DNA of 64,000 bases, taken from the NCBI RefSeq assembly GCF_026109735.1, contig NZ_CP069620.1, positions 682,001 through 746,000 on the forward strand, given 5' to 3'. Source of the stretch: Salinimicrobium tongyeongense (GTDB taxonomy: Bacteria; Bacteroidota; Bacteroidia; Flavobacteriales; Flavobacteriaceae). The position numbers were made by a program, and so were the translations under genes. The notes below the pieces were generated by a model that was given only the letters and a program-made list of their open reading frames with translations, was not told the origin of the DNA and made no database searches. Below are positions 1-57,000 of the stretch, in pieces (positions within the stretch are counted from its first letter, which is position 1; each line of letters starts with the position of its first letter).

Positions 1-492
1 CCCGATCTGTTCCGCATCGAATAATCGCTGGATCTGTTTATACACCTGTTGTGCCTGTTCCAAGCGCTGTTGCTCCAGCTCTTCTCGCTGCTGCAGAATT
101 TGAAGCTCGAAAAGCTCTTTTTTGGCCTGCAGAAGGACTTCTTGGCGCATGGCGTCGTACTCTAGTTCGAGTAGCTTCTTTTGTTTGTCAATCCGTTTGC
201 TGCGGGCCGCATAGACCGTCGGAAATTCAAAGCGCTGAGATATTTGATATTCATAATAATCTTCTGTCTCATGCTCCCCAAATGGTAAATAATATGCTGA
301 AGCCTGAGGGTCCGGCAGATTATTTTCAGTTTTGTTTCCAAGCTTCTGACTGCGAATAAACGACTGATATGCCTGTAGCTGCCTATTATTCTGGCTTATC
401 TCCTTTAAAATGTCATTCCTTCCGGTATTCTGGCCAAATGAGCCGGTAGAGATAAGGAATCCGCAGAAAGCGGAAACTATATATCTGAACAT
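1..492 (-). CDS. TolC-family outer membrane efflux channel, N-terminal part (runs off window)
   Basis: The reading frame is open from an ATG at 492 to the window edge (164 codons, no stop), so only the N-terminus is seen. It begins with a signal peptide (MFRYIVSAFCGFLISTGSFGQ minus its last residue as an approximate cut), then a segment with features of CusC/CzcC-type TolC proteins: ILKEISQNN near the start, QKLGN, LPDP, a QRFEFPT motif, and a long Gln/Glu/Lys-rich helix that would enter the periplasmic tunnel. In Flavobacteria such proteins export heavy metals with an RND pump and adaptor, which would lie left of the window. The His-rich secreted gene lies 71 bp upstream on the same strand, a common arrangement at metal-efflux loci. 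Family assignment is fairly sure; the metal is inferred. Confidence 0.75.
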   Translation of the reverse strand, partial: MFRYIVSAFCGFLISTGSFGQNTGRNDILKEISQNNRQLQAYQSFIRSQKLGNKTENNLPDPQASAYYLPFGEHETEDYYEYQISQRFEFPTVYAARSKRIDKQKKLLELEYDAMRQEVLLQAKKELFELQILQQREELEQQRLEQAQQVYKQIQRLFDAEQIG

Positions 493-563
493 AATTTTTG
501 ATTTTAGTTTAATCTATATGATAAGATCGGCCTGCTATTTTAAATAGTGGCCTGACTAGTTAA

Positions 564-1001
564 TCAAACTAAGTCGGGAGGTCCCCGAAGTGAGAGTATG
601 GATAAATAAGGGTTGAAATATTCATTGGGAGGCTGATAAATTTCAAAACTTTCTGAATCTTGATCAGCTAAAACCCAATTCTCTGAATAGTATTTATTTG
701 AGGCTTTCTTTTTGGCTTCTGTCTTTTGCAATCTTACATCCTCGGAATATTCCTTAATAACCGGAATTTCATTCAAAGCAATCGTATGCGAATGAATGGC
801 CAACAGATAGGACAAGAATCCCCCCTGCTTATCTTCTTGCTTCTTTTCGTGGTGATGATCTTCACCGGAATGATGATGATGCGCAACCTCCTTCTTCTCC
901 TGCCCATGTGCATGGTGTGCATGTGGAATTATCTGATGAAGAGACATCAGCATAAAGATACCAAGGAGGAATAAAGCTTTTATTTGAGATTTTGTACGCA
1001 C
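564..1001 (-). CDS. His-rich secreted or membrane-anchored protein of a metal-efflux locus
   Basis: 145 residues. The N-terminus (residues 5-25) is a hydrophobic signal or anchor. It is followed by a His-dense stretch: 12 histidines between residues 22 and 51, including runs of four (41-44) and three (49-51), among Glu, Asp and Lys. The rest is polar with no domain I recognise. Proteins of this type commonly stand immediately upstream of TolC/CusC-type channels in Flavobacteriaceae, as here, and are thought to bind divalent metals or Cu in the periplasm. Binding is inferred from composition only. The gene is probably cotranscribed with the TolC gene downstream. It shares the 331-bp upstream region with the divergent DUF302 gene. 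Confidence 0.7.
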   Translation of the reverse strand: MRTKSQIKALFLLGIFMLMSLHQIIPHAHHAHGQEKKEVAHHHHSGEDHHHEKKQEDKQGGFLSYLLAIHSHTIALNEIPVIKEYSEDVRLQKTEAKKKASNKYYSENWVLADQDSESFEIYQPPNEYFNPYLSILSLRGPPDLV

Positions 1002-1332
1002 AGACTACAAAAGTAGTAATTTATCACAGAGATTTGAGAAAAAATAGTAAACCACAAGAACCTTAGCTCCTATGGTTTATACTTCAACTAATTAAATTGC
1101 TAACTATTTAAGTTATACATTTAAATAAAATTTCTTTTGAGTTAGAAAATCATGTAAAATACCAATTTCCACTACTTCGAGTTCTTCGAGGGTATCATCT
1201 TTAATAACTTGAACTTTTTCAAAGAAAAGCCGCAGATGACGATTAAGCTTAAAATCTTATGTAACAATTGTTACTGAAAGTCTCTTTATATAAATTTATT
1301 TTCATGAGTTAATCATTTAAAAAGAAAAATGT
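1002..1332. other. Divergent intergenic region between His-rich protein and DUF302 gene
   Basis: AT-rich, 331 bp. No complete gene is visible. On the minus strand at about 1120-1250 there is a stop-to-stop open frame of about 47 codons without a start codon, which may be a remnant of a lost gene. A perfect 14-bp palindrome (1261-1274) is listed separately. Promoters for both flanking genes must lie here, but I could not place a clear -7/-33 pair. Confidence 0.5.
1261..1274. promoter_or_regulatory. Perfect 14-bp palindrome, candidate operator upstream of DUF302 gene
   Basis: GTAACAATTGTTAC is its own reverse complement and ends 58 bp before the DUF302 start codon. A dyad of TAAC/GTTA half-sites is the sort of site bound by Crp/Fnr-family dimers. 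Which regulator binds is unknown. Confidence 0.4.
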
Positions 1333-1719
1333 ATGAAATATTATTTTGCCAAAACAGTGTCGGGAGAATTTGAAGAAGTAATTAAAAAAGTTACCAATGA
1401 ATTGGAAAAGGAAGGTTTTGGGGTGCTCACCCAAATAGATATAGCAGCTACCCTAAAGAAGAAACTGGATGTTGATTTTAAAAAATATCAAATCCTGGGT
1501 GCCTGCAATGCTCCCTACGCACACAAAGCACTAAAAGCCGAAGATAAGATCGGTACTATGTTGCCTTGTAATGTAATTGTTCAGGAAGTGGCAAAGGGTA
1601 AAATTGCGATCGCTGCAGTAAACCCTTCGGCATCTATGCAGGCGGTAGGAAACAAAGATTTAGAAGAGATCGCCACAGAAATTGGAAATAAACTACAAAA
1701 AATAGTGGATAACGTTTAA
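1333..1719 (+). CDS. DUF302 domain-containing protein
   Basis: 128 residues, the whole length being one DUF302 domain: KYYFAKTVSGEFEEV at the start, GFGVLTQIDI near residues 34-43, the LGACNAPYAHKAL segment near residues 55-67 and a LLPCNV-type segment (here MLPCNVIVQ) near residues 76-84. No signal peptide, so cytoplasmic. The function of DUF302 is not established; in Bacteroidota these genes often sit beside metal-resistance and mobile-element genes, which fits the neighbours here. A short hairpin (CTCGAT/ATCGAG, 1746-1758) follows the stop codon. Recognition of the family is confident, the role is not. Confidence 0.85.
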   Translation: MKYYFAKTVSGEFEEVIKKVTNELEKEGFGVLTQIDIAATLKKKLDVDFKKYQILGACNAPYAHKALKAEDKIGTMLPCNVIVQEVAKGKIAIAAVNPSASMQAVGNKDLEEIATEIGNKLQKIVDNV

Positions 1720-1854
1720 ATTAAACAACTTCGGAGTATTTAAATCTCGATTATCGAGTAAATTTTCCAGAATTTGGAGAAAGAAAAACGAACTCAAAAA
1801 ACTAAAACTCAGAATTATACTGAAAGCCGGAAAACCGTATCGATTTGGAATTCT

Positions 1855-2024
1855 ATCAAAGAAGGTATAATTCACGAAGGATGGCAGGATACGGTTTTAT
1901 TAATGCCCGGAATGAAAATTCGTTTGATAATGGATTTCAACGATTTTAAAGGTCTTTTGTATATCATTGCCATAATCTGGAACATGAGGATATGGGAATG
2001 ATGAGAATTTTCCTCATAAAATAA
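1855..2024 (+). pseudogene. Multicopper oxidase C-terminal remnant, frameshifted
   Basis: The frame reads EGWQDTVLLMPGMKIRLIMDF followed by GLLY, which matches the last cupredoxin domain of CopA/CueO-type multicopper oxidases (the first segment is given in two pieces in the family as GW-DTVL and PG-RI--L--F). At 1961-1965 there are two extra bases; after them another frame gives HCHNLEHEDMGMMRIF and a stop at 2022-2024. HCHN-LEHED-MGMM is the signature of the type 1/type 3 copper ligands (HCHxxxHxxxxM). Sequence before about 1855 does not look like the family, so more than two thirds of the gene is gone. It is a relic of a copper-oxidase gene that once stood in this island. A 75-codon open frame from 1774 covers most of it but is not expected to be functional. 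Confidence 0.7.
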
Positions 2025-2168
2025 AGCCTTTCATAAGAAAAGGGATAGATATTATATAAACTACTTTTATAAAAGCTCCTTAATATCCTTAATGAGTTGA
2101 ACAGGACCAGAAAAAATAAACTTTTTATAAATTTAAATAACCGATTTAATAATTTTTAAAACTAGAAT

Positions 2169-2780
2169 ATGAGAACAATAGTAAAAACTTTAATGATTAT
2201 TGGAGTAGCAAGCACTTTACTTAGCTGTAAATCAACCTTCAATGCTGCCGAAACGATGGATGTAAATGAAAATCGATATGCGGTCTATCAGGAAATTATA
2301 TCGAATCCGAATAATTTTAAGGAATTTATTGGCCAGGCTCAGCAAAGTGAAGAGGCTAAAAAAATCATGATACAGGAACACATGCAAATGATGGAATCGG
2401 GAAAAATGAAAGGTATGATGGCCAATAATCCCGAAATGAAAGAAAAAATGAAATCGCATATGCAAAAAATGATGGAGGAAAATCCTGAAATGCAGGAAAT
2501 GATGATGAAAAAAATGATGGATAAGCAGGAAATGCGTCAGAAGATGATGGAAAAAATGCAGGAAAATCCGCAAATGCGTAAGCAAATAATGGAAAAAATG
2601 CACGGAATGATGCGAAAAAATCCGGAAATGCGTGAACAGATGACACAAAGTATGCAAAAAATGATGCAGGAAAACCCCGAGATGATGGAAAAAATGATGC
2701 AGAAGATGATGGAAAATCCAGAGATGATGCAAAAAATGAAAGATAAGATGAAACAAAAACCAGGAAATCGTAAAAACTAG
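2169..2780 (+). CDS. Met-rich repeat lipoprotein, probable copper-binding
   Basis: 203 residues. N-terminal lipoprotein signal with lipobox LLSC (Cys20). Residues 21-66 form a polar linker. Residues 67-194 contain 42 methionines among Lys, Glu and Gln, with the motif NP(E/Q)M at 87, 105, 133, 151, 169 and 183 and a KQEM variant at 119. The spacings are 18 or 14 residues, close to five and four helical turns, so a long helix with Met on fixed faces is likely. Met clusters bind Cu(I) in CopA-like, CusB/F and PcoA-type proteins; copper binding here is inferred from composition, the stump of a multicopper oxidase upstream and the metal-efflux genes at the window edge. Low-complexity coding makes the opposite strand open too, but only this frame has a signal and lipobox. 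Confidence 0.75.
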   Translation: MRTIVKTLMIIGVASTLLSCKSTFNAAETMDVNENRYAVYQEIISNPNNFKEFIGQAQQSEEAKKIMIQEHMQMMESGKMKGMMANNPEMKEKMKSHMQKMMEENPEMQEMMMKKMMDKQEMRQKMMEKMQENPQMRKQIMEKMHGMMRKNPEMREQMTQSMQKMMQENPEMMEKMMQKMMENPEMMQKMKDKMKQKPGNRKN

Positions 2781-2882
2781 AATTCTAACCGCAAAAAATA
2801 TTCAAATACATACATTGAAAAATTAACTCCTAAATCTGAGGAAGAAGGATATTTAAAAACATTTGTGTCCGGTTAAATTTTT

Positions 2883-2917
2883 AAAAGCGGGATTCCCTTG
2901 ATGGGTTTCCCGCTTTA
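2883..2917 (+). terminator. Hairpin after the Met-rich gene
   Basis: AAAGCGGGA pairs with TCCCGCTTT around a loop. The T tract is poor, so it is a weak terminator candidate or part of a decayed repeat. Confidence 0.35.
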
Positions 2918-2951
2918 GAGTAATTTGGTTTTTACCACAAAATCAAATACT

Positions 2952-3000
2952 ATGAACAAAAGTACTCACTTTAGCGGACATCCAATAAATAAAAAATTAG
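2952..3000 (+). pseudogene. Remnant of a DUF4372/IS4-type transposase N-terminus
   Basis: ATG at 2952 opens MNKSTHFSGHPI, which resembles the conserved start of DUF4372-type IS4 transposases (MNK-T-FSGQP-F). The similarity stops after about 12-16 codons. It looks like a short scar of a lost insertion sequence. Confidence 0.4.
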
Positions 3001-3099
3001 GACTATCTCATAAACTGTGTAAATGTAAAACATGTAGGTTTGCCAACCTCCAAGTCTTTTAAATCTTGCCTGCAAATTCCAGACAATAATATTTACACA

Positions 3100-3901
3100 A
3101 TGAAAAAAGATTTATTCGATGATGAATTTTTAAAAGAGTTTAAATCAGGAGAAGAACTTGGAATTTTTTAATCAACTTTAAAAACGTGGATTGGAGAAAA
3201 TGCTTGAGTGTGAATTGGATGACCATTTCGATTATGATAAGCACTAGAAGTCTAGATCTGGAGTTCTTTTGGTGAAGGCACTGTAAAGGTTCCTGAGACC
3301 GGGTTGGATCCTTTGTTCCCAAGGGACAGAACATGGTTGATGCCATCGAAAATATCAAGGAATGAGCAATAGCGATTTTGAGGAACACATCTCTGAGGTT
3401 AATGGTTTTGATGTCTCTACTCCCGAATTACAGACCGAATCAGCAGTGATATCGTTGCCGGGTAAAATCATCCTTTAAATACCTGTAGATATGTAGTTTG
3501 GAAATATAAAAAAGTCTTTACCAAAGACATTAAGCTCATTTATGATGCACTTCCCCAACAAGCAGCAGAAGCTGCTCTGGAGGATTTTGTCAACAAATGG
3601 AATTCCACATACTCTTATGCTAATAAAGCTGGAGAGACAACTGGAATGACCTTACCGTCTTCTATGAGTTCCGCTGGAGATCAGACGAATTATTTATTCC
3701 ACCAATCGTTTTGAGAACCTGAACGGGAAGATCAGAAAGTACACCAACAACCAATTATCCTCACCAACCGATGATGCTGTAATCAAATCTGTATATTTAG
3801 CTCCGAAGGAAGCAATTAAAAAATGGTCAACGCCTATTAGAAACTCGGGAATCGTCCTCAATCAGTTCTTGACTATCTACGAAGAAAGAGTTCAGTTTTA
3901 G
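3100..3901 (+). pseudogene. Degenerate IS256-family transposase
   Basis: Pieces of an IS256-type transposase can be read in changing frames. The start is MKKDLFDDEFLKEFKSGEEL, then a stop and a frame giving the LEKMLECELDDH segment. Near 3540 there is DALPQQAAEAALEDFVNKW; near 3650-3800 the segment corresponding to [18 protein letters not shown]; at the end [14 protein letters not shown] and a stop at 3899-3901. Several stops and shifts, and loss of the middle of the catalytic domain, make it non-functional. It is distinct from the intact IS256-family element to its right. Confidence 0.6.
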
Positions 3902-4004
3902 ATTTTAAAGTCAAACACTTTTATTTTAAATTTCCACGCTTTAAGGGATAGTGTCTAAAATCACTTTTTTAAACTTTCAAACGTTACGGGAAAGTCTCAC
4001 CTAA

Positions 4005-4099
4005 TCAAAAATTTATCACACTATCCAAAGCTTCATCAGCATCTCGATGAATGAAATTGGCCTGATAATTCAGAGTAGTCTTTAGATTACTATGTCGCT
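4005..4099 (-). pseudogene. Severed 3' end of the tyrosine integrase gene
   Basis: On the minus strand this reads RHSNLKTTLNYQANFIHR followed by DADEALDSVINF and a stop (TGA at 4005-4007). It is the C-terminus expected after the LQKLYR end of the integrase frame on the far side of the IS. It carries the conserved His of RHS and the nucleophile Tyr in LNYQ. Joining the two parts across the IS restores a normal integrase end in frame. Confidence 0.8.
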
Positions 4100-4101
4100 A
4101 A

Positions 4102-5437
4102 GGGTCTGTAATTTAAACTCTGTCTGATCTTTCAATATTTCTGTTGATGATTCCAGAGGTACTGGTATTTATAGCCAGTGGTATCCTGTCTCCAAATTTA
4201 ATATAAAATTGCTGAATCGTAAGGCTCCAATTATGAAGAGGAGCTGTCCATTTCTTTTCGATGTTCTTGGTGGCCAAGTAGACCAGCTTCAGTAGTGACA
4301 TGTCATTAGTGAAGGCTCCTTTGGTTTTTGTAACCTTACGAACCTGACGATGGAAACCTTCAACGGCATTAGTAGTATAGATTATCCTTCTGATTGGTTC
4401 GGTGTACTGAAAATACTGTGAGAGTTCCTCCCAATTGCGTTGCCAGCTATCAATGACTACTGGATACTTCTGACCCCATTTTTCTTCCAGGTTAAGCAGT
4501 TCATCTTCAGCTATTTCTTTGTTCACGGCCCTATACACTTTCTTAAGATCTCGCATAAATTCCTTTTGATTCTTTGAAGCAATGTACTTTAGGGAGTTTC
4601 TTATTTGATGAACAATACAAAGCTGTACCTGTGTCTTAGGAAACACGCTTAGAATAGCATTAGTAAAACCTTTTAGATTATCTGTACAGGCAATTAAAAT
4701 ATCTTCCAGTCCCCGGTTTTGTAGATCGGTTAGCACCTGGAGCCAAAAATTAGCGCCTTCGCTTTCAGAGATGTACATACCTAGAACTTCCTTATATCCC
4801 TCTTTATTGATTCCTAAAATATTGTAGAGAGCCTTATGTTCTATTTTTCCTTCTACCTTCACTTTGTAATGCATCGCATCAAGCCATACAATGCAGTAAA
4901 GGGAATCCAGAGGACGGCTCTGCCATGCTTTTACATCGGGAATGATCTTGTCAGTGATCTGACTTAAGACCGTGTGAGAAATGTCCGTGTCGTACATCTC
5001 CTTGATGTGTGAAGATATGTCACGGTAGCTCATTCCAAGGCCATAGAGACCTATGATCTTTTCAGATAGATTATCCGCTAATATAGTCTGGCGCTTCTTT
5101 ACCAATTCTGGCTCAAAACTGCTTTGCCGATCTTGTGGGGTATTAATTTCAAAGGATCCGAAGCCGCTCTTTATCTTCTTTTTTCCTTTGCCGTTGCGCT
5201 TATTACCACCGGAACGTTCTTCCTCATTAAGATGAGAATCCATCTCTGCTTCAAGAGCTTTTTCAATAAAATTCTTAAGCATAGGTGCAAAGGCACCATC
5301 TTTTCCGAAGAGACTCTTGCCCGATATAAACTGCTCCAGGGCTTTCTTCTCTAAATTTTGTTGTTCTTCTGTTGTCATGGGTTTGTCTGAATAAAATTAT
5401 TTAAAAATCCTTTTCAGACAGAGTTTATTTTACACCC
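4102..5437 (-). mobile_element. IS256-family insertion sequence
   Basis: About 1336 bp, bounded by imperfect inverted repeats that share AAACTCTGTCTGA inside and GGGT at the tips (left tip 4102, right tip 5437). It contains one transposase gene on the minus strand. It is inserted in the integrase gene. The flanks share only CGAC, so no clean 8-9 bp target duplication is visible, and the exact boundaries could differ by a few bases. Confidence 0.8.
4113..5378 (-). CDS. IS256-family (mutator-type) transposase
   Basis: 421 residues, a normal length for the family, with no internal damage. Domain order is typical: N-terminal MLKNFIEKALEAEMDSHL, the RNGKGKKKIKS/FEINTPQDRQSSFEP region, and the DDE catalytic fold. 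Likely catalytic residues are Asp in IVWLDAMHYK, Asp in ACTDNLKGF and Glu in YTTNAVEGFHRQVRK. The CIVHQIRNSLKY segment between them is characteristic. It should catalyse copy-and-paste transposition of its own element. The start ATG at 5378 lies about 60 bp inside the right inverted repeat. Confidence 0.93.
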   Translation of the reverse strand: MTTEEQQNLEKKALEQFISGKSLFGKDGAFAPMLKNFIEKALEAEMDSHLNEEERSGGNKRNGKGKKKIKSGFGSFEINTPQDRQSSFEPELVKKRQTILADNLSEKIIGLYGLGMSYRDISSHIKEMYDTDISHTVLSQITDKIIPDVKAWQSRPLDSLYCIVWLDAMHYKVKVEGKIEHKALYNILGINKEGYKEVLGMYISESEGANFWLQVLTDLQNRGLEDILIACTDNLKGFTNAILSVFPKTQVQLCIVHQIRNSLKYIASKNQKEFMRDLKKVYRAVNKEIAEDELLNLEEKWGQKYPVVIDSWQRNWEELSQYFQYTEPIRRIIYTTNAVEGFHRQVRKVTKTKGAFTNDMSLLKLVYLATKNIEKKWTAPLHNWSLTIQQFYIKFGDRIPLAINTSTSGIINRNIERSDRV

Positions 5438-6682
5438 TCGTCGATAGAGCTTTTGCAGCATCAAAGGATGAATTTTATCACCTGCAATATTCCCAAAGCT
5501 ATGTCTTGCAATGTGATTGGATAAATTTTTATCTATACCACATTCCTCTGCAATTCGTTTTAGATATTTATTGAGAAGTTTGGTAGCATTTTTTGTTTTA
5601 ATATAAATTTCTTCAGCATCTTTAGGATGGACATTTTTTAGAAAAGGAAATACATATCCATTATAAAGTATCTTGTCCTTTCTGTAATAGCTTAATATTT
5701 TTTCGGCTTTATCAGGAATTTTTAAGCTCAATGCCTTTTCATTCTTATTCATTACATAATAAAGACGATTATCTTTAAAATCAGACCATTTCAGTTTAAC
5801 CACATCAGAAATACGTATGCCTGCAAAATAGAAAGCAAACAACCATACATTATGAGTATGCCAAATTGAAGCACCTTCTTCAAATTTTAGAACTTCTATT
5901 TTTTCAACCTCTTCTATAGTTAGACCGATTTTATTACCAGAACCAATTCGAATTTTCTCTTTTTCCCCTGCAAAAGGATAATATTTTTGATCAATAATAC
6001 CTTCTTTTATTGCTAGATTAAAAAGTGTTCTAATAAAAATAAGCTGATTCGTAACAGTTCTAGTTGTTTGGTTTAAATAAGAAAGACAAAAAGTTTTATA
6101 TTTATTTATAAATGCCTCATCAATTTCCTGAAATCGTAAAGCTGTACTTTTTTGAAAATAGTTCACTCCATCCATCCACATATATTCGGCCCTTTTTGCC
6201 CTACTTATACGCTCTCTACGTCGTTCTTTGATCTCTTTGATAACTGTAGATTTGTTTTTAGATTTTTTTAGATTTAAAAATTCTTCTAAATTATAGAGGA
6301 TTGACAATTCAGATTTGGCTACAGAGAATGTCCCCCTTTCATATTTGTCCTTTATACGTTCAGCTGCTAATGCAAAAAAAGATTTTAAGCCTCCAGGACC
6401 TTTTAATTTTTGTTTGGCTTGTTTGGGAGTAATACGATCTTTCGACTCAAAATAAATATCATTGACCTCGGTCAACTTTTTCATCAAAAAATTGTTCAAT
6501 TTTCTATAATTGGGATGAGTTCTCTTAACTTTTCCAGCAGTTTTATCCCAGTCCTTTTCAAAAACATATTGTCCAAGCCAATGATAATTTGTTTTATAAT
6601 TTTCACTAATCCTCAATGCAAGGGGAATTGTGCCATCCTTTCTTATCATGTTCTTCCGTAAAACAATCTTTACATTAGCCAT
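5414..6682 (-). CDS. Tyrosine recombinase/integrase, C-terminus cut off by IS256-family insertion
   Basis: 422 residues as read, but the true protein ends at about 5438 (LQKLYR); the last residues and stop come from the IS end. Order: Arm-DNA-binding N-terminal domain of the Bacteroidota type (residues 1-90), SAM-like core-binding domain (about 105-245), catalytic domain with Arg in AGIRISDVVKLKW and His/Arg in NHIARHSF. The RHS and the nucleophile Tyr lie in the piece at 4005-4099, on the other side of the IS. The product should therefore be inactive for strand cleavage. Its start lies about 200 bp from the tRNA-fragment attachment site and it is transcribed away from it, as expected of an element integrase. 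Confidence 0.85.
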   Translation of the reverse strand: MANVKIVLRKNMIRKDGTIPLALRISENYKTNYHWLGQYVFEKDWDKTAGKVKRTHPNYRKLNNFLMKKLTEVNDIYFESKDRITPKQAKQKLKGPGGLKSFFALAAERIKDKYERGTFSVAKSELSILYNLEEFLNLKKSKNKSTVIKEIKERRRERISRAKRAEYMWMDGVNYFQKSTALRFQEIDEAFINKYKTFCLSYLNQTTRTVTNQLIFIRTLFNLAIKEGIIDQKYYPFAGEKEKIRIGSGNKIGLTIEEVEKIEVLKFEEGASIWHTHNVWLFAFYFAGIRISDVVKLKWSDFKDNRLYYVMNKNEKALSLKIPDKAEKILSYYRKDKILYNGYVFPFLKNVHPKDAEEIYIKTKNATKLLNKYLKRIAEECGIDKNLSNHIARHSFGNIAGDKIHPLMLQKLYRRGCKINSV

Positions 6683-6731
6683 AATGATCTGATTTAAAAC
6701 TTAGTAAAGATAGTGAAATGTTTAGGCAGTT

Positions 6732-6773
6732 AGTACAGAATAAGTACAGAATAGTACAGAATAAGTACAGAAT
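6732..6773. repeat. Four direct repeats of AGTACAGAAT
   Basis: Copies start at 6732, 6743, 6753 and 6764, so the spacing is 11, 10 and 11 bp, about one helical turn. They lie between the integrase start and the attachment site. That is where arm-type sites for an integrase or excisionase would be expected; this role is inferred. Confidence 0.6.
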
Positions 6774-6879
6774 AATTTGATTTTAATACCTTCTAATTAA
6801 GATCAGGTATTATATAAAGCACTGTAAATCAAATATTTTGCATGGTTTTAGTTGAAATTGCATAGATAAAACATCAAGT

Positions 6880-6920
6880 TCATAACCCGGAGGTCACGAG
6901 TTCAAATCTCGTTCTCGCTA
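6880..6920 (+). other. tRNA-Met(CAT) 3'-half fragment, element attachment site
   Basis: The sequence reads as the anticodon loop (TTCATAA), 3' anticodon stem, variable loop, complete T arm (ACGAG TTCAAAT CTCGT) and 3' acceptor strand TCTCGCT with discriminator A of an initiator-type tRNA-Met. There is no matching 5' half upstream, so it is not a working tRNA. Integrases of this family recombine at tRNA 3' ends and leave such a copy at the far end of the element. The intact tRNA should be at the other end, left of the window. Confidence 0.75.
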
Positions 6921-6933
6921 CTCTTACTCAACA

Positions 6934-7249: not shown

Positions 7250-10200
7250 ATGAAACAAAAATTACTTGTGTTAATTCCACTTTTGGTGTTCTGTCTCACA
7301 GTATATTCTCAACAGGCTGAGACTCCAGTTAGTGGAATAGTTGTAGACGCAGAAACAGGAACACCGCTTCCTGGGGCAAACATTCTAGAAAAAGGCACCT
7401 CTAATGGTGTAATGACTGATTTCGATGGAAATTTTGAAATTTTGGTGCCTGCCGATGCCACTTTGGTAGTGTCATATGTTGGTTACACTTCACATGAAGT
7501 ACCAGTTGAAGGAAATTCTAAATTAACCATAAACCTCAAGCCTGATGCCGCTACTCTTGATGAAGTAGTGGTTGTGGGTTATGGTACTCAAAAGAAGGCT
7601 AACCTTACGGGAGCGGTAACAACAGTAGACTCTGAAGTTCTTCAGTCCCGTCCTGTTCCCAATGTAAGTGAAATGCTACAGGGGGTGGTTCCAGGTCTTA
7701 ATTTTCAAACATCCGGACTGGGGGGTGAATTAAATTCCGGACTTAGTTTCAACATACGTGGCTCGGGTACTATTGGCTCCGGTTCTAACTCTGCTCCACT
7801 CGTTCTGGTAGATGGTATGGAAGCAAACCTGGATGCTCTAAATCCCCAGAACATCGAATCTATAACTGTGCTAAAAGATGCAGCTGCTGCCGCTGTATAT
7901 GGTTCAAGGGCTGCCTTTGGTGTGATTCTGGTTACCACAAAAGATGGCAGGTTGGGCATACCAACTATTAACTACAGTAATAACTTTCGTTTTAGCTCTC
8001 CGCTGCACGTTCCAAACATGATGGATTCCCATACATTTGCTTTGTACTGGAATGAAGCAGCTGAAAATTCGGGTCAGGCACCGCCATTTTCGCAAGAAGT
8101 AATTGAAAGAATAATTAAATATCAAAACGGAGATATTGACTATGGCACAGTACCCAATGCAAATGGCGACAGGTATCAATATTATACTGGGTCTAATGCC
8201 AATACAGATTGGTTTGAGGAACTATATAAAGATTATTCATTTTCACAAGAGCATAACCTGAGTCTAAGCGGAGGTACTGAAAAAACTACATATTTCACTT
8301 CTGCAAGGTTTCTGGATCAAGGAGGTCTACTTGCCTACGGGGAAGATAGATTGGAAGATTACGATTTTAGCGGTAAGTTGAACACAGAAATTTCGAAATA
8401 TGTAAGGTTCAACTCCAGCACCCGGTTTTCACGCAGAGAATATGAAAGACCTACACAGCAGGGAGGCTTATTCTATCACAATATTGCCCGAAGATGGCCA
8501 ACCGTACCCGTGAGGGATCCAAATGGGAATTTTGGTGACTCTTCAGGAGAAATTCCGCAACTGGTGCAGGGAGGACGCACCAATGACCTTGTTGATAGAT
8601 TATATTTACAGGGGCAGTTGACAATTACACCTCTTGAGGGATGGAATATATACGCCATTGGTAATTACAAGATCACCAATGTAAACAACCATTCGGAAGT
8701 TCTTCCGGCTTATGCATATGATGTGGCTGGAGACCCTTACCCTGTTGCTGTAGGATGGAATTCTCCTGGTTATAGTTCAGTCTACGAGTACAATCGCAAA
8801 GAAGATTATTTCAGCACTAACATTTACTCTGATTACACCTTTGACTTCAATGAGGTTCACAATTTCAAAGTCATGGCCGGCTATAATTCGGAATTGACAA
8901 AGTATCGAACAATAGGTGCTTCAAGAAGTGGATTAATCACACCCGATCTTCCCACTATTGATACTGCCACAGATGAAAGTAGGGCAACAGAAGGCCAATA
9001 CCAACACTGGTCTGTAGCAGGATTCTTTGGCAGATTAAATTACAATTACAAAGAAAGGTATTTACTGGAGGTTAACGCCCGCTATGATGGTTCTTCCCGC
9101 TTTATCAATGATAAACGCTGGAACCTGTTCCCTTCAGTATCGGCAGGCTGGAACATTGCCAACGAAAGATTCTGGCATTTAGACAAAACCATTCAATTGC
9201 TAAAACTAAGAGGTTCTTATGGAGAACTTGGTAACCAGAATACAAGCAACTGGTACCCCTTTTACCAGTCTATGCCCGTAGGTACGGCTAATGGTAGCTG
9301 GTTACTCAATGGTGAAAAACCAAATACAGCAAGTGCACCCGGTCTTGTAAGTTCCCTGCTTACATGGGAAAGAGTGACCAGCTGGAACGTGGGCTTAGAT
9401 ATGGCACTTTTGAGAAACAGATTGAATTTAAGTGTAGAATACTTTAACAGAAAAACTCTTGATATGGTAGGGCCTGCACCCCAATTACCTGCCATACTTG
9501 GAACTGCAGTGCCACGAATTAATAATGCCGATATGGAGTCAACCGGAGTTGAACTTGAAATAAACTGGAGAGATTATATTGGAGATTTCAATTACAGTAT
9601 TAGAGGAACCATTTCTGATTCCAAACAAAAGGTGCTCAGCTATCCGAACCCTACAAATAATATTTCAGACTGGTATGACGGTAGGGCAATGGGTGAAATT
9701 TGGGGATACAAAACTATTGGAATTGCCAAAACAGATGAAGAAATGCAGAACCATCTGGCAAACACCAGTCAAAGCCAATTAGGAAGTAACTGGGAAGCCG
9801 GTGATATTATGTATGCCGATCTAAATGGAGATGGTGAGATTAATTCAGGAGATGGCACCCTTGAAAATCCGGGAGACTTAACTATAATAGGTAACTCTAC
9901 TCCTCGCTACACCTTTGGAATTGACATGAGCGGTGACTACAAAGGGTTTGATTTCCGTGTATTCTTACAGGGTTTCGGGAAAAGAGACTATATGCCAAAT
10001 GGCCCCTATTTTTGGGGAGCTAATGGAGGAATGTGGCAATCTGCCGGGTTTGAAGAACACATGAACTTCTTTAGAGATGAAAATTCACCCATGGTGCAGG
10101 CAGGGCTGGCAGAGGTCAACCCCAATGCTTACTTTCCCCGTCCAATGTTCGGAAGTGGCAAAAATCAACAGACACAAACCAGGTATTTACAAGATGCTTC

Positions 10201-10414
10201 ATACCTAAGAGTAAAAAATGTTCAGCTTGGATACTCCTTTGGAGCCTTTGAAAAGGCGCGTTTTAGAGTCTATGTTTCCGGGGAAAATTTGTTGACCTTT
10301 ACAGATATGATAGATATGTTTGATCCTGAATCTATTGGTTTGGGAGGCTGGAATGACGGTAAAACATACCCTTACTCACAGGTATATTCAGTTGGTCTTA
10401 ATATCACTTACTAA
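7250..10414 (+). CDS. SusC/RagA-type TonB-linked outer membrane transporter
   Basis: 1054 residues. Signal peptide (KQKLLVLIPLLVFCLTVYSQ region), a carboxypeptidase-regulatory-like domain (about 27-102, VSGIVVDAETGTPLPGAN), a TonB-box-like LDEVVVVGYGTQKK, a plug domain (about 113-235, ending in the AAAAVYGSRAAFGVILVTTK motif), then a 22-strand type barrel ending in the usual aromatic terminus (YSVGLNITY). These pump glycan oligomers across the outer membrane using TonB energy, with the SusD lipoprotein as lid. The partner gene starts 18 bp downstream. The uronate-degradation cluster downstream suggests a uronic-acid-containing glycan, but no lyase or hydrolase lies in the window, so the substrate is inference. 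Confidence 0.95.
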   Translation: MKQKLLVLIPLLVFCLTVYSQQAETPVSGIVVDAETGTPLPGANILEKGTSNGVMTDFDGNFEILVPADATLVVSYVGYTSHEVPVEGNSKLTINLKPDAATLDEVVVVGYGTQKKANLTGAVTTVDSEVLQSRPVPNVSEMLQGVVPGLNFQTSGLGGELNSGLSFNIRGSGTIGSGSNSAPLVLVDGMEANLDALNPQNIESITVLKDAAAAAVYGSRAAFGVILVTTKDGRLGIPTINYSNNFRFSSPLHVPNMMDSHTFALYWNEAAENSGQAPPFSQEVIERIIKYQNGDIDYGTVPNANGDRYQYYTGSNANTDWFEELYKDYSFSQEHNLSLSGGTEKTTYFTSARFLDQGGLLAYGEDRLEDYDFSGKLNTEISKYVRFNSSTRFSRREYERPTQQGGLFYHNIARRWPTVPVRDPNGNFGDSSGEIPQLVQGGRTNDLVDRLYLQGQLTITPLEGWNIYAIGNYKITNVNNHSEVLPAYAYDVAGDPYPVAVGWNSPGYSSVYEYNRKEDYFSTNIYSDYTFDFNEVHNFKVMAGYNSELTKYRTIGASRSGLITPDLPTIDTATDESRATEGQYQHWSVAGFFGRLNYNYKERYLLEVNARYDGSSRFINDKRWNLFPSVSAGWNIANERFWHLDKTIQLLKLRGSYGELGNQNTSNWYPFYQSMPVGTANGSWLLNGEKPNTASAPGLVSSLLTWERVTSWNVGLDMALLRNRLNLSVEYFNRKTLDMVGPAPQLPAILGTAVPRINNADMESTGVELEINWRDYIGDFNYSIRGTISDSKQKVLSYPNPTNNISDWYDGRAMGEIWGYKTIGIAKTDEEMQNHLANTSQSQLGSNWEAGDIMYADLNGDGEINSGDGTLENPGDLTIIGNSTPRYTFGIDMSGDYKGFDFRVFLQGFGKRDYMPNGPYFWGANGGMWQSAGFEEHMNFFRDENSPMVQAGLAEVNPNAYFPRPMFGSGKNQQTQTRYLQDASYLRVKNVQLGYSFGAFEKARFRVYVSGENLLTFTDMIDMFDPESIGLGGWNDGKTYPYSQVYSVGLNITY

Positions 10415-10432
10415 AATTTAAAATAAGCAATT

Positions 10433-12415
10433 ATGAAATTTATTAGATATATATTTGTCATCCTTACCACCCTGCTTGTTATGAGCTGTGAAGTTGATGA
10501 CTTTCTTGACAGGGAACCTCTGTCTGACGTCACGCCCGATGCTTACTTAAACCGAGAAGCCGATCTTGCCGCTTATACCATTGCCCGATACAACTTCCCC
10601 ACACATGGGGGATGGGGAATTGGTACTTTTGCACAGGATAACCATACCGATAATCAAGCAACTACCGGCTACAGTAATATCTGGGCTCCCGGAGAATGGC
10701 GGGTACCTCAGTCAGGCGGTATATGGAATTTTGGAAATATACGGCAGCTTAATTATTTCCTTGAAACAGTGGTTCCAAGATGGGAAGCCGGAGAAATTGA
10801 GGGAACACCTCAAAATGTTGAACATTACATAGGAGAAGCTTATTTCCTTAGAGCTTATGAATATTTTCAAAAAGTTGAAGCAGTAGGTGATTTCCCTATT
10901 GTAACTAAAACCCTTAAAGATGATTTAGAAGAACTAATTGCAGAGTCTAAGAGGAGACCAAGAAATGAAGTAGCACGTTTTATCCTTTCCGATCTTGATA
11001 TTGCAATTGAACTTTTACAGGAGACACCGCCTAATGGCAAGAACAGGATTTCAAAATATGCAGCACTTTTATTAAAATCGCGAGTAGCACTGCATGAAGG
11101 CAGCTGGTTAACCTACCATAAAGGCACTCCATTTGTACCAGGTGGCCCTAATTGGCCCGGAACAGGTTTAGTCAATGATTTTGAAATTAGTATAGATGCT
11201 GAAATTGATTATTTTCTCACTGAGGCGATGGATGCATCTTCAACAGTTGCAGATGCTATCTCATTAGTACCTAATATTCCTAATGATGATATTGGTTACA
11301 ACTCCTCCAGCAATCCATATTTCACCATGTTTGGTTCAGATAATCTAGAGTCTTATGAAGAGGTTTTATTGTGGAGAGATTACGACCCAACTTTGGGTGT
11401 AAGTCATAACGTAAACCATTACATAAACCAGAATGGTGGAAATTCTGGATACACCAGAAGTTTTGTAGATAACTTTCTAATGACAAACGGACTCCCCATA
11501 TATGCCCCTGGATCTGGTTACGCAGGAGATGATTTTATTGAAGATGTTAAAGTGGACCGCGATCACAGGCTTCAGCTTTTTATGAAAGCACCGGGTGAGC
11601 TCAGATTAATTGACGCCACAGAACCCGGCGGCAGTCCAATTCTTATTGGAATACCTGAAATAACAGGTTTACAGGAAACAAAAGATGTAACCGGATACTC
11701 CATTAAAAAAGGTTTCTCCTACCTTCAAAGTAACACTGAAGGAAATAATGGCTCTACAGGTAGTATTGTTTTTAGAGCTGCAGAAGCATATCTTAATTAT
11801 ATTGAAGCTTCATACTTAAAAGAGGGAACAGTGAATGGAAAAGCTACTGAATACTGGCAAGCAATTAGAGAAAGAGCTGGAGTAAATCCAGATTTTACAG
11901 TGACAATTGCAGCAACAGATATTTCAAAAGAGGCTGAAAATGATTTTGCCGCTTATTCTGGTGGTATACTTCTTAGTGATCCCGTGTTATACAACATAAG
12001 AAGAGAGAGACGAAGTGAACTAATGGCTGAAGGAATGCGCCTTTTTGATTTAAAACGTTGGAGAGCATTAGACCAGCTAAAAAGCGCCCCTCATATTATC
12101 AAAGGCTTTAAACTTTGGGGGCCTATGAGCGAATGGTATGAAGACGAAGATGGAAATTCTATCTTAATAGAACCTGGGGAAAGTGGTGTTCCTAATGTTT
12201 CTAGCAGTGATGAAAGTGATTACCTGATGCCATACAGGATAAACGTTGGTTCTGGGAACCTTGTAAGTGACGGATATTCTTGGGCGTATGCTCATTACTT
12301 AAACCCAATTGCCACAGAGCATTTTCTTATTACGACGACCGGAGGAGCATCTGAATCTGTAATTTATCAAAACCCGGGTTGGACTAAAGAAGCCGGAACA
12401 GGAGCTAAATTTTAA
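10433..12415 (+). CDS. SusD/RagB-type outer membrane glycan-binding lipoprotein
   Basis: 660 residues. Lipoprotein signal with lipobox LVMSC (Cys19), then EVDDFLDREPLSDVTPDAY, the standard SusD N-terminus. The TPR-like helical part includes YIGEAYFLRAYEYFQKVEAV; the C-terminal RagB/SusD region includes IRRERRSELMAEGMRLFDLKRW. It caps the SusC barrel and delivers oligosaccharides. The start is 18 bp after the susC-like stop codon, and a strong terminator follows, so the two form a bicistronic unit. It is longer than many SusD proteins because of insertions around residues 210-330. Confidence 0.95.
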   Translation: MKFIRYIFVILTTLLVMSCEVDDFLDREPLSDVTPDAYLNREADLAAYTIARYNFPTHGGWGIGTFAQDNHTDNQATTGYSNIWAPGEWRVPQSGGIWNFGNIRQLNYFLETVVPRWEAGEIEGTPQNVEHYIGEAYFLRAYEYFQKVEAVGDFPIVTKTLKDDLEELIAESKRRPRNEVARFILSDLDIAIELLQETPPNGKNRISKYAALLLKSRVALHEGSWLTYHKGTPFVPGGPNWPGTGLVNDFEISIDAEIDYFLTEAMDASSTVADAISLVPNIPNDDIGYNSSSNPYFTMFGSDNLESYEEVLLWRDYDPTLGVSHNVNHYINQNGGNSGYTRSFVDNFLMTNGLPIYAPGSGYAGDDFIEDVKVDRDHRLQLFMKAPGELRLIDATEPGGSPILIGIPEITGLQETKDVTGYSIKKGFSYLQSNTEGNNGSTGSIVFRAAEAYLNYIEASYLKEGTVNGKATEYWQAIRERAGVNPDFTVTIAATDISKEAENDFAAYSGGILLSDPVLYNIRRERRSELMAEGMRLFDLKRWRALDQLKSAPHIIKGFKLWGPMSEWYEDEDGNSILIEPGESGVPNVSSSDESDYLMPYRINVGSGNLVSDGYSWAYAHYLNPIATEHFLITTTGGASESVIYQNPGWTKEAGTGAKF

Positions 12416-50835: not shown

Positions 50836-51049
50836 ATTCCTGCTATGCATCAGCTTGCACAGCCTCTAAATTTCTACATACTTTTCTTACACAGAATAAG
50901 TTAAAATTATCTAATAATAGTTAAATATCAACTATTTACCCGATAATTCTAACTCTTGCCAAAAACCCCTAAAAAATATACTTAATTCACAGTAAATTAG
51001 TACGTTAACGCTCCCCTCCTATTTTCTTGTCCCCAAACGTGCTGTGAAT

Positions 51050-54000
51050 ATGGTAAAAAAACTACTCGGTAAAATTGCTGTTTTTTGGGCTCTTATTCTT
51101 ACTCCGTTTATAAGCTGGGGGCAGGAGTGTACAGACGCTGTGCCTACGTTTTCCATTACCAACCATACCGGGAGCAGTATTTGTGAAGGCGAACCCTTAA
51201 ATTTTAGTGCCGCGGTATCTCCATCCAATCCACAGATCCCCTATGAATACCAGTGGCAGGTACAGGTAAACGGGGGTGCATGGACCAATATTTCCGGTTT
51301 TGGCGCAGAGACTGCCAACCTTTCAAATTATGCAGCGGCTATTGGCAGTAACAGGATAAGGTTGCAAGTAACCTACTGTGGCGGCACTACAGGAGTAAAT
51401 ACCCTAACCAGCAACTCTTCCGCAACCATCACGGTTTATGAAAACAAGACAGGCAGTGTTAACATAAGTGCCGATAAAACCCATATTTGCCCCGGCGAAC
51501 AAATCACTTTCTCTTCAAGCCCTTTTAATCACGGGGGTTCGGGGGCGACTTATGAATGGAGGCTGCTCAGCAACAACAGCATTTTAAGCACAGCTTCTAC
51601 ATTCACCTCTGCTGCCATTCCAGATGGCGGGCAGGTAAAACTCTATATGACCTCCTCTGTTCCCTGTGTTGACCCTTTTGAAAGCAACATTATCAATATT
51701 TCGCACAAAGCAGGAATGCCTTCCCAACCTTCGGCCATCTCCATTGACACAGAACCCGACACGGTTATATGTCCCGAAACCTCAGTTACTTTTTCAGTCA
51801 CAAGTGATCCTGCCGCCAGTAATTACATCTGGACTTTACCCACAGGATGGGAAGGTGCCAGTACAACAAATATTATCACGCTCACCACCGGCCAGGCCGG
51901 TGCTACGATGCAGACAATTTCTGTTAAGGCCGAAAACGAATGTGGCCAAAGTGCTACGACTACGCTGGATGTCACAGTGGGTCCCGGCATACCCGCCACA
52001 CCTTCGGAAATTCAGATCACAGATGAAGATAATGACGGCATCATTTGCCCCGGTGAAAACATAACACTTTCGGTAACAAACGACAGAGAAGCAACCAGTT
52101 ATACCTGGAGCCTGCCTGCCGGATGGATTGGATCCAGCACCTCAAATTCAATCGCCGTTAGCGGGATCGAATCCGGAGAAAATGGTACTGTCTCTGTCTA
52201 TTCCTCCAACGAATGTTCGCCCGGTACCAGCAGCAGTCTTAGTGTGAGTGTTAATGATCCGGTTCCTTCCATGCCCGGAGCTATTACAGGCGCAAACCTG
52301 GTGTGCACTGGTATAGACGCCACTTATTCAATAAGTGCCGTGCCATACGCCGACACTTATGAATGGATCCTGGACGGGAAGCTGATTAATGAAAATACCG
52401 GAACAAATTTCCTTTTTAATTCCACAGCAGTTGGCCCCCATACCCTGGAGGTCCTGGCGAAAAATGAATGCGGCAGCAGCACAGTCTCATCTATGATCAT
52501 AGAAGTAGACGACGGCGCTCCCGGTGCTGTAAAGATTAGCAATTCTAATGGGGAAAGCAGCTTTTGTGAAGGAGCCACAGGCCTGATCTTTTCTGTACCC
52601 GCAGATGCCAAAGCAGATAATTACTCCTGGACGGTTCCTGCCGGCTGGATTATCACCTCCAGCAATGAGAACTCAGTAACCGTAACAGCAGGTTCATTTG
52701 GGCAGGATGGAAATATATCGGTGACCGCATCCTCAGCACAGGCTTGTGGTGAGGTGAGCGACAGCTTTCCGGTTTCTGTAAAGCATCTCGTTCCCCCTGC
52801 ACCGGCAGGTATTTCAGGCCCCGCACAGGTTTGCATGGGAAGCACCAACACCTTTACTGTAGGCAGTGTAAATTATGCTACCGGCTATAAGTGGATACTG
52901 TCTAACGGTACTTCCCTTACCACCACGGGACCTTCAGTTGAACTCCCTATCACTTCATCCGGAGCATTAGGCCTAACTGTTCTGGCTATAAATGAATGTG
53001 GGGAAAGTTCAGCCTCACCAAGTTTCGCAATAGAATCTTTTAATTCAGTTCCTTTAAAACCTGGCCCCATAAGGAGCAGCCTATCCAGCCTTAATGTTTG
53101 CCCACCTATTAACGGAGTTACTTTTACTATTGATAAAACAGATCATGCAACAGATTATACCTGGAATCTGCCAGGCGGCTGGTATATTGTTGATGGCAAA
53201 GGCACTGAAAGCATTACTGTAGATATTTCCGCAAATGTTGCTTTAAGTAGCGGCAGTGTTAGTGTAAAAGCAAATAATACTTGCGGAAGTAGTGTAGCTT
53301 CAGACCCATTTGTGATAACCCTGGGTAAATACGTAGTTGCCGATTTAGGCCCAGATCTAACAGTTTGCGAAGTCTCCGCTCCCATCTCATTTACTGCCAA
53401 TGTTTCCTTCAGCAACAAATCTATTAAGGTAGTTAACATTTACTCCCCCGATGCTTCCGGTGCTCTCCCCAATCCTCCCAATGGACCAGTTAAGAATTTC
53501 ACTTTTAGTTACACCCCGGTGGCAGCCGATTTTGCAAAAGAATATATTAGCATCCGCTTAAAAACAGAAGACCCCAAAGGAGAATGTGACTCTCCAATTG
53601 AAGAGTACAATGATGAAGTAAAGGTCTATTTTCGGGATAAGCCTAGTGCCAGCTTCACTTCTGCAAATTCTGAAGTGTGTTACAATACAGGCACCACATT
53701 GGAAATCTCGGGAACTCCAAATACCACAATTTCCTACTCCAATGGCGCCTCAAGTTTTACTGCCAATCTCGACAGCTCGGGCAAGGCTTCGGTGACAACG
53801 GGAAATCTGCTTCAAACCACAACTTACACTTTAATGTCGATCGCCTACACCAATGGTGCCGGGTGTTCCGAGAATATTACAGGCAGCACCACCATCTTAG
53901 TAAACCCCATTCCCAATGCTGTGCTGACATATAACCAGGATTCCTTCTGCAATTCTGATACCCAGGTTTATACGCCTCAATTTTCAAATACGGCAGGAAT

Positions 54001-57000
54001 TTTTGAAGGGGGGCTGTTTTCGGCTACGGGCATTGCCGTAAATGCCACAAATGGTTCCTTTTCCCCAAATGGCGTTCCTCCCGGAAATTATATTATCACT
54101 TATGCTTTTGATGATCCTTTATCCTGCGGATATCCACCTCTTACTACCGAAATAACCATTTTCGAGTCAGTTGCCATTACTTCGCAGCCTCAGGAAACAA
54201 GGATTTGCGAAGGGGAGGCTGTTAATCTTTCAGTAGAAGCTTCAGGAGACGGCTTAACCTATCAATGGTTCAAAGGCAGTGGAAGCGGTACGGCCATTTC
54301 AGGTGCAAATTCGGCTACTTACAGTATTCAGTCTTCGACGGAAGCAGATGAAGCTTACTATTACGTGGAAGTGAGCGGTGCCTCCCCCTGTTCCACCGTA
54401 AAATCTAATGAAGTACAACTGATCATTGATCAAAAAATGGAAATCCTGGCCCTCGTTTCCGATGCGGCTAATAATGAAATATGTGAAGGCGGTGCTGTTA
54501 CTTTCTCGGTTACTACTACTTCAGATGATGAAAACCTGGTATATCAATGGTTTGACAATTCCGGAAATCCAATTTCGGGAGCAAATCAAAGTACCTATAG
54601 CCTGGCAGGAGTTACTCCCGGCGATGCGGGGAATTATTCCGTAGAAATAGGAGGAGCCACAGGCTACAGCTGTAGTAAGCTTACCTCGAACAATATTGCG
54701 CTTGTTGTTAATGAAACCCCTAATGCCGATATTAGTTATTCGGGATCCTATTGTACTTCAGACTCGGGTGTCAAAAATGTCATTTTCGGGAATACTTCCG
54801 GAAATTATTCCGAAGGAACTTTTTCATATTCAGCAAATACTGCAGCTAATATCCTGAACCTCGACCCTGTTACCGGGGCCATAAATCCGGCAGCCAGTGA
54901 TCCGGGCATTTATACGGTCATTTATACTATTTCTGAAGCCGGGGGTTGTGCTTCCAGTGAAGAAACCACGCAGGTAACAATTACTGCCGCCCCCACTGCC
55001 AGTCTTGCTTTTGCAGGAGGTCAAACCGAATTTTGCAACGATAGCAGCCAGACTGCACTAACGCCTCAATTGACCGGAACCGGCAACTATACGGGAGGCA
55101 CTTTTTCAGGAATCCCGGGAATGGATCCTGAAAATGGCACTTTTGACCCGGCAGGTCTCACAGCGGGAACCTACACCCTCACCTACAACATTCCTGCTAC
55201 CAGCGGCTGCCCGGCCCGGGAGGTTTACCTGCCGGTTACGATACATGAAAAAATAGTTATTACTTCCGAACCTTTTCCTGTAGCTGTCTGTTCCGCAAAT
55301 AATACGCAGCTTGAAGTAGCGGCCTCAGGGGCCAGTTTGACTTACCAGTGGTATAAAGACGGGAATCCCGTTAACGGGGCTAACGCAGCGATCTATGAAA
55401 TTAAAACAGCCTCGGTAAACGAAGACCACGGCAACTATTACGTCATGGTAAGCGGAGCTGCTCACTGTGATGCTGTTTCTTCGGAAACTGTTACGGTGAC
55501 CGTAGATGAAAATATTGTGGTGACCACACAACCTCAGCCTCAGGAAGTTTGTGCGGGAGCAGAAATTAATCTTTCAGTTTCAGCAACAGCTTCGGGCGGG
55601 GCGCCAGGTTACCAATGGAGAAAGGATGGCGTAGCTCTGGAAGGAGCAAATTTGGCAAGCCTGGTAATTCCAAATGCCCAGGCCTCTGATGCCGGGCAGT
55701 ATGATGTGCTTATCACCGGGGCCGATGGATACGCCTGTGAGGAGGGGTTTTCAGAAATAGCTTCGGTCACCGTGAACGCTGCCCCATTTGTTGATGCCGG
55801 CAGCGCTATAGAAGCCTGTTCTACCAACACTGCTATCGCTGTTGGAAATGATGCCGTTGCAAGCAATTATGCGTCACTGGAATGGAGCACCACCGGCACG
55901 GGAACCTTTGACAATGTGAATGCTATGACCCCCAATTACCTTCCCGGCACCGGTGAAACCGGGGAAATCACCCTTACCCTTACGGCCATGGGCAATGGCG
56001 GATGTACTTCTGCATTTGATGAGGTGCTAATTACCATAAATGAACTTCCGGTGATCAACTCCTTCGGGTATGCACAATCAGAGTTTTGCGTCTCTGTCAA
56101 CACCGCACAGGCACCCGTGCTGAATATCTCAAATGCCACAATTTCTGAAGGGCTTTTTTCCTATTCCGGAGATACGGGGAATGTGCTCGATTTAAATCTT
56201 ACTTCCGGGGAAATAGATCCTTCCGGAAGTACACCGGGCAGATATTTTGTCACTTTTGAAATCCCAGAAAATGGTATTTGTACAGCCGTTTCTGAAACAG
56301 TCGAGCTGATTATTGGAGATCTTCCGGCAGCCGATTTCAGCTATACTCAGCCTGCTGTTTGCCGTGACACAAGGGCTGCAAACCCTTCCCTGAAGATCAA
56401 TGAAACCGGGCTTTTGTATACCGATACTGACTTTTTCAGCAACACTACGGGCCTGGTGTTTAAAGACGCATCTACAGGAGAAATTGATGTAGATGCAAGT
56501 GCTTCGGGAGCCCATATGGTTACCAGAACTGTAGATTATTCAGGAACAATGGAAGATGGCTGTGCTGCTGTTACATCTACTTTTGAAATATCTATTGATG
56601 ATAAGCCAGTGCCCGATTTTTCATACAATAGCAATCAATATTGTTCCAACGATCCTAATCCTCTTGTGCAATTTCCAACAGGTGCAGTGGCGGGAACTTT
56701 TTCAGAAAAAAACAATAACGGCGGACTCATTTTTGCAAACCCTGCCACCGGGGAGATCGATCTTGCTGCTTCCCAGCCGGGCTCATACGTGGTGGTTAAC
56801 ACTGTTGATAACCCTAATGACGCCTGTAACCCTGTTAGTGCTGAATTTGCTGTAACTATACAAAAGTTACCCGATGCAGGTTTCAGCTATCCTGCTTTTG
56901 CATTTTGTCAAAGTTCAGGCACTACCCCTGCTCCTGTAATAAGTGGAGACCCGGGCGGAACATTCACCGGTTCTGCGGGACTTGTAATAGATTCTGCCGG

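Follow-up and report, generated by a model that had tools for sequence, protein, structure and literature searches.

An IS256-family insertion splits the integrase gene of a ~129-kb conjugative element that has probably become fixed in the chromosome of Salinimicrobium tongyeongense

The window analyzed here is a 64,000-nucleotide stretch covering positions 682001-746000 of the one-contig 3.51-Mb genome of Salinimicrobium tongyeongense. It contains a minus-strand integrase ORF of 422 aa (5414-6682) that ends in ...HPLMLQKLYR followed by residues derived from an insertion sequence (IS), and the integrase C-terminus, RHSNLKTTLNYQANFIHRDADEALDSVINF followed by a stop codon, is encoded on the far side of the IS. 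The locus therefore raises the question of whether the mobile element that carries this gene can still leave the chromosome. A preliminary description had proposed that an IS256-family insertion deprives the integrase of its nucleophile Tyr and that the element should thus be locked in place. We consider it very likely that this is a ~129-kb Salinimicrobium ICE whose integrase was split by the IS, which has lost self-excision, and which is probably fixed. The coordinates of the features are collected in Table 1.

Table 1. Positions of the split integrase gene, the insertion sequence and the ends of the ICE. Positions are those of the window unless given as genome positions.
Feature	Position	Strand	Remarks
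ICE right end, part within the window	1..6921	.	Remainder leftward, genome 559.89-682.0 kb
Integrase 3' part	4005..4097	-	Last 30 residues and stop; third catalytic His and nucleophile Tyr
Left target copy GTCGCTAA	4094..4101	.	2 substitutions relative to the uninterrupted L023 site
IS256-family insertion sequence	4102..5439	-	1,338 bp; ends from genomic copy L019
IS transposase, 421 aa	4113..5378	-	Transposase_mut / MULE
Integrase 5' part	5440..6682	-	Residues 1-414 and one base of the next codon
Right target copy GTCGATAG	5440..5447	.	Identical to the uninterrupted L023 site
Four AGTACAGAATA arm-type repeats	6732..6774	.	Between integrase start and attR
attR	6879..6921	+	43-bp copy of the 3' part of tRNA-Met(CAT)
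attL	genome 559814-559890		Intact tRNA-Met gene

The two integrase pieces, kept apart, were compared with 42 integrase loci obtained from one scan of genome contigs. Because the query of that scan was the truncated protein, the tail played no part in choosing the loci. A single open frame of 443-448 aa contains the matches to both pieces at 38 of the 42 loci, and in it the C piece begins where the N piece stops. The pieces correspond to residues 1-414 and 414-443 of the unbroken integrases of S. nanhaiense (L023) and S. profundisediminis (L024), and the single Arg common to both is encoded within the duplicated target, so that the integrase gene is split by the IS and its parts make up an integrase of family length, as had been proposed. 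At the protein level the N piece is 98.8% and the C piece 100% identical to both homologs, and the DNA of the C piece shows 0/90 differences from L024 and 2/90 from L023. Changed codons specific to this copy of the 5' part are synonymous in eight cases and non-synonymous in two, and signs of decay are absent, an observation that counts against the explanation favored here. The four loci outside the 38 (L042, L058, L061, and L064) are interrupted by in-frame stops or give matches that fall in different frames, and L064 additionally lacks the first 178 residues; loss of the related integrase through stops or apparent frameshifts thus recurs in 4/42 of these flavobacterial genes.

In the truncated ORF, Pfam detects Arm-DNA-bind_5, Phage_int_SAM_5, and a truncated Phage_integrase match, in that order, which is the domain order of a tyrosine recombinase. 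The Phage_integrase match covers profile positions 31-137 of 172, as against 31-168 in the intact L023 and L024 proteins, and the 5' part accordingly consists of the arm-binding domain, the SAM-like domain, and most of the catalytic domain. When searched against the PDB, L024 weakly matches three distinct sequences named Int protein, with whole-sequence E-values of 3.1e-05 to 1.1e-04, and the H-x-x-R motif, the third His, and Tyr424 all lie within the aligned tail. The residue aligned with Tyr424 is Tyr in two of these deposited ICE-integrase sequences and Phe in the third (6EMY), which is what a catalytic-Tyr mutant would show. The codon of this Tyr is at 4065-4067 in the 3' part, and the IS separates His415 and Tyr424 from Arg I and H-x-x-R. 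The division of the active site given in the preliminary description, with the Arg and H-x-x-R on one side and the Tyr on the other, is therefore correct; to the loss of the nucleophile Tyr must be added that of the third catalytic His. With His415 and Tyr424 encoded on the far side of the IS, the full catalytic set is no longer contained in one polypeptide, and we count the gene as a broken member of the tyrosine-recombinase family. Judged from its residues, the 422-aa truncated product, without the third His and nucleophile Tyr, should not cut DNA and should be unable to make the covalent Tyr-DNA link, and it probably keeps its predicted DNA binding.

The transposase of the insertion matches PF00872 (Transposase_mut) with an E-value of 1.6e-100, which bears out the assignment to the IS256 family, and the terminal inverted repeats are imperfect, with 21 of the 26 outermost bases matching. 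A further genomic copy of the IS (L019) has the same length of 1,338 bp and is flanked on either side by a perfect 8-bp duplication, CTTCGCTT; on the basis of this copy we place the right end of the window IS at 5439, not at 5437 as initially described, while the start at 4102 is unchanged. The two target copies in the window, GTCGCTAA and GTCGATAG, are alike at 6/8 bases, and agreement at 6 or more of 8 would occur by chance with a probability of 0.004 under equal base frequencies. L024 differs from the right copy by one synonymous base. The left copy is substituted at 2/8 bases, yet the next 90 bp of the gene are identical to L024, a pattern not predicted by a simple recent insertion; either faulty repair when the IS inserted or mutation at a later time could account for the cluster of substitutions. 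There are three full-length copies of the IS in this genome, the two others being 87% identical to the window copy. Among 199 sampled genomes of the family, with at most two candidates scored per genome, three including this one have an IS match at E ≤ 1e-100, and the other matches are 75-76% identical. No donor of the window copy was found in this sample, which includes one of the eleven genus relatives. A degraded second IS256-type element is present at window 3000-3969, where L022 matches at 74.7% and 87.7% over two stretches; no more than about 40 bp separates its end from the integrase stop, and S. profundisediminis carries part of it as well.

The element to which the integrase belongs, referred to in the preliminary description, is real and has defined ends: it extends over ~129 kb from a tRNA-Met gene (genome 559.89 kb) to the 43-bp copy of the tRNA 3' end. 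With up to three mismatches allowed, a 31-bp tRNA 3'-end pattern has two genomic occurrences, one at 688892-688922 and the other in the tRNA-Met gene itself. Besides the four AGTACAGAATA repeats in the window, two more are found at the opposite end of the ICE (genome 559939-559960), so that these repeats lie just inside both ends. A 22-bp double AGTACAGAATA unit, with up to three mismatches, occurs at three places in the 3.51-Mb genome, all at the ICE ends, and the reversed pattern used as a control occurs at none. These repeats are predicted binding sites of the integrase arm domain. At least two repeats of this type (one mismatch allowed) are found upstream of the integrase match in 37/42 of the related loci, and a tRNA-like att core with up to eight substitutions in 32/42, whereas each feature was recovered in 0/840 single-base shuffles. 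The 32 att-core loci comprise 12 with 0-5 substitutions and 20 with exactly eight; the latter share another tRNA-like sequence and may represent a different tRNA target. Neither form of the core is present at the remaining 10/42 loci.

From the island we kept 116 ORFs (g19-g134), and 41 of these were scanned with Pfam. A MobB relaxase is the sole transfer protein to pass its NCBIfam cut-off. The VirD4/MobC-type coupling protein and a TraG P-loop ATPase score above the Pfam cut-offs, TraM and TraN/DUF4138 score above the Pfam but below the NCBIfam cut-offs, and TraK has an NCBIfam match alone, below its cut-off. The named transfer proteins are equal in length to their S. profundisediminis matches except for TraK, TraN, and the coupling protein, for which the matches cover 200/204, 270/279, and 525/527 residues, respectively. 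The island thus encodes a relaxase, a coupling protein, and components of type IV secretion, with the tra set partly identified; the element has no complete integrase of its own, and we therefore file it as a decayed ICE. A copper-type P-type ATPase and a CusA/CzcA-type RND pump, both above the NCBIfam cut-offs, are found on the island together with a metal-related multicopper oxidase, another RND pump and its HlyD partner (Pfam scan alone), RadC, and a type III restriction pair. No drug-inactivating enzyme was detected among the 41 of 116 island ORFs scanned; a metallo-beta-lactamase-fold match was rejected as one because it carries Beta-Casp and RMMBL domains.

Twelve genomes of Salinimicrobium, a genus of the Flavobacteriaceae, were searched, including this one. 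The 98.8%-identical, unbroken integrase genes of S. nanhaiense (G003) and S. profundisediminis (G004) have an att site of the same kind next to them. In S. profundisediminis a stretch in the same order as the ICE likewise begins at this tRNA: contig C6 gives eight matches amounting to ~83 kb of the 100 kb compared, 67-96% identical, of which ~72 kb are at 91-96%. Contig C5 carries the integrase and att end (97.4%), with more matches adjoining, and we infer that C6 and C5 adjoin. The integrase and the listed transfer genes are accordingly both present in this species, on two contigs. In S. nanhaiense a 26-kb relative lies between tRNA-Met and att (L139-L140, C80:61732-87676); it contains an unbroken integrase, TraK, TraM, TraN, the coupling protein, and the relaxase, no TraG match is found within the element, and of the gene preceding TraK just the C-terminal 53 residues are present. 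Taken together, the states of the three elements suggest that decay can set in at either end of the machinery, that of S. nanhaiense appearing complementary to the one described here.

We read the sequence flanking tRNA-Met in all of the 11 relatives but G009. In six of these ten (G005, G006, G007, G008, G010, and G011) hisS and its neighbors lie at most a few kb downstream of the tRNA, and in S. nanhaiense the hisS region comes after the 26-kb element. It was not seen beside tRNA-Met in G001, where the contig ends early, in G002, or in S. profundisediminis. In S. tongyeongense the hisS region is at genome 2584.7-2591.3 kb on the other strand, about 2 Mb from tRNA-Met, and we rejected the right flank of the ICE as the ancestral tRNA-downstream region; the window from 6922 onward holds a rearranged join. 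The same join is found in S. profundisediminis (contig C13), where the integrase is unbroken, so it probably predates the IS insertion and has no bearing on it. The displaced hisS region and the shared join mean that a large inversion or translocation broke the chromosome close to the att site. A SusC/SusD-like pair occupies window 7250-12415, between attR and a PepSY gene at 13119, a site at which S. profundisediminis has about 0.5 kb alone. Farther on, a 3,421-aa frame (51044-61309) with PKD-like, Ig-like, and laminin-G-like domains is probably a giant surface or secreted protein.

Whether the ICE can still move depends on other recombinases, for which we searched the PF00589 and PF00239 families. 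The genome has ten PF00589 matches, the broken integrase being the only one inside the ICE (genome 559.9-688.9 kb), and no PF00239 (Resolvase) match was found in the whole genome; the searches gave matches in 14/14 and 10/14 control genomes, respectively. The closest full-length paralog elsewhere (L005) is 406 aa long, with 39.5% identity across 413 alignment columns. With no other PF00589 match in the island, no PF00239 match in the genome, and a closest paralog at this distance, locking is the best reading, and an ICE locked in the chromosome is the likeliest outcome, one that we regard as probable.

The nine other PF00589 proteins, the 406-aa paralog among them, are nonetheless candidates for acting in trans on the ICE ends and keeping the element mobile, which we consider rather improbable. 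Neither the att core pattern nor the double arm repeat was found elsewhere in the genome, and the uniqueness of these sites indicates that no resident kin element shares them. Tyrosine integrases as divergent as this usually have their own sites, and rescue by L005 in particular was judged unlikely. A reversible switch of the kind known from IS256 in a staphylococcus, in which precise excision of the IS would make the integrase phase-variable and the locking temporary, is less probable still. Both integrase parts are otherwise undamaged, and clean excision of IS256 from a Staphylococcus epidermidis gene has been described, as a rare event that does not depend on transposition (PMC11178275). 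The target copies of the window IS, however, differ at 2/8 bases, which should make precise excision rarer still; the analysis covered one genome of the species. That the IS was misplaced by the assembler between two parts of an intact gene is hardly credible, since, although other IS copies in the genome could mislead assemblers, the genome assembled into a single contig, the other full-length IS copies, two in number, are too divergent to be mistaken for this one, and a target duplication, though imperfect, is present.

On the preferred reading of a locked ICE, the element would have entered at the 3' end of tRNA-Met by means of its own 443-aa tyrosine integrase, and the IS256-family element would later have jumped into the codons for integrase residues 412-415. 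Self-excision and self-integration would have been lost with this event, leaving the ICE probably fixed in the lineage. The integrase must have been working when the ICE entered, or have been supplied in trans, which suggests that the IS insertion came after integration. The locus provides a well-bounded case of a large conjugative element turned into a fixed island through one IS hit in its integrase.

Hfr-like transfer from excision-defective ICEs is known. Because the transfer genes that were identified are seemingly whole and excision is lost, the ICE may act as a natural Hfr dragging chromosomal DNA, and the truncated integrase, which keeps its arm- and core-binding domains, could additionally sit on att sites and hinder incoming kin elements. 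We regard this combined scenario as unlikely. If it were true, transfer would be initiated by the relaxase on the chromosome itself, and neighboring chromosomal DNA, rather than a circle, would enter recipients. The set of three Salinimicrobium elements would allow testing whether lost excision makes an ICE chromosome-mobilizing.

Our literature search found no paper joining Salinimicrobium and integrase. The IS resembles the IS256 family in its Mutator-type transposase, its length of ~1.3 kb, its imperfect inverted repeats, and its 8-bp target duplication (perfect at L019 and 6/8 in the window, in a family with duplications of 8-9 bp), and it is low-copy here. The integrase resembles the Int proteins of 6EMY, 6EMZ, and 6EN0, which we take to be the Tn1549 integrase, as a tyrosine recombinase in which His-x-x-Arg, the third His, and the nucleophile Tyr align; overall similarity is weak, with a best whole-sequence E-value of 3.1e-05, and those proteins presumably serve another host phylum and target. 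The transfer region has relatives of TraK, TraM, and TraN (NCBIfam Bac_Flav_CT_K/M/N), families that we take to represent CTnDOT-type elements, and it shares with such Bacteroidota conjugative transposons a MobB-family relaxase and a coupling protein related to Bacteroides MobC. It differs from them in that the Tra and MobC-type matches are below the NCBIfam cut-offs and in its metal-efflux cargo.

Decayed ICEs with integrase pseudogenes are already known, and this element is a further example of an ordinary kind of decay. In the relevant passage of PMC4542580, the phrase "disrupted by an insertion" refers to a promoter and not to an integrase. In streptococci, ICEs whose integrase is missing or a pseudogene were counted as decayed ICEs (dICEs), and the table notes of that study record elements lacking an integrase CDS (absent or pseudogene), four of Tn916 type and three of Tn5252 type, as well as one Tn1549-type element whose integrase is a pseudogene (PMC4701971). 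The streptococcal dICEs and the ICE of S. tongyeongense alike combine transfer genes with a defective integrase. In contrast to the streptococcal elements, the one described here is flavobacterial, occupies a tRNA-Met site, was interrupted by a single IS with defined ends, and has 98.8%-identical unbroken counterparts of its integrase in two other species.
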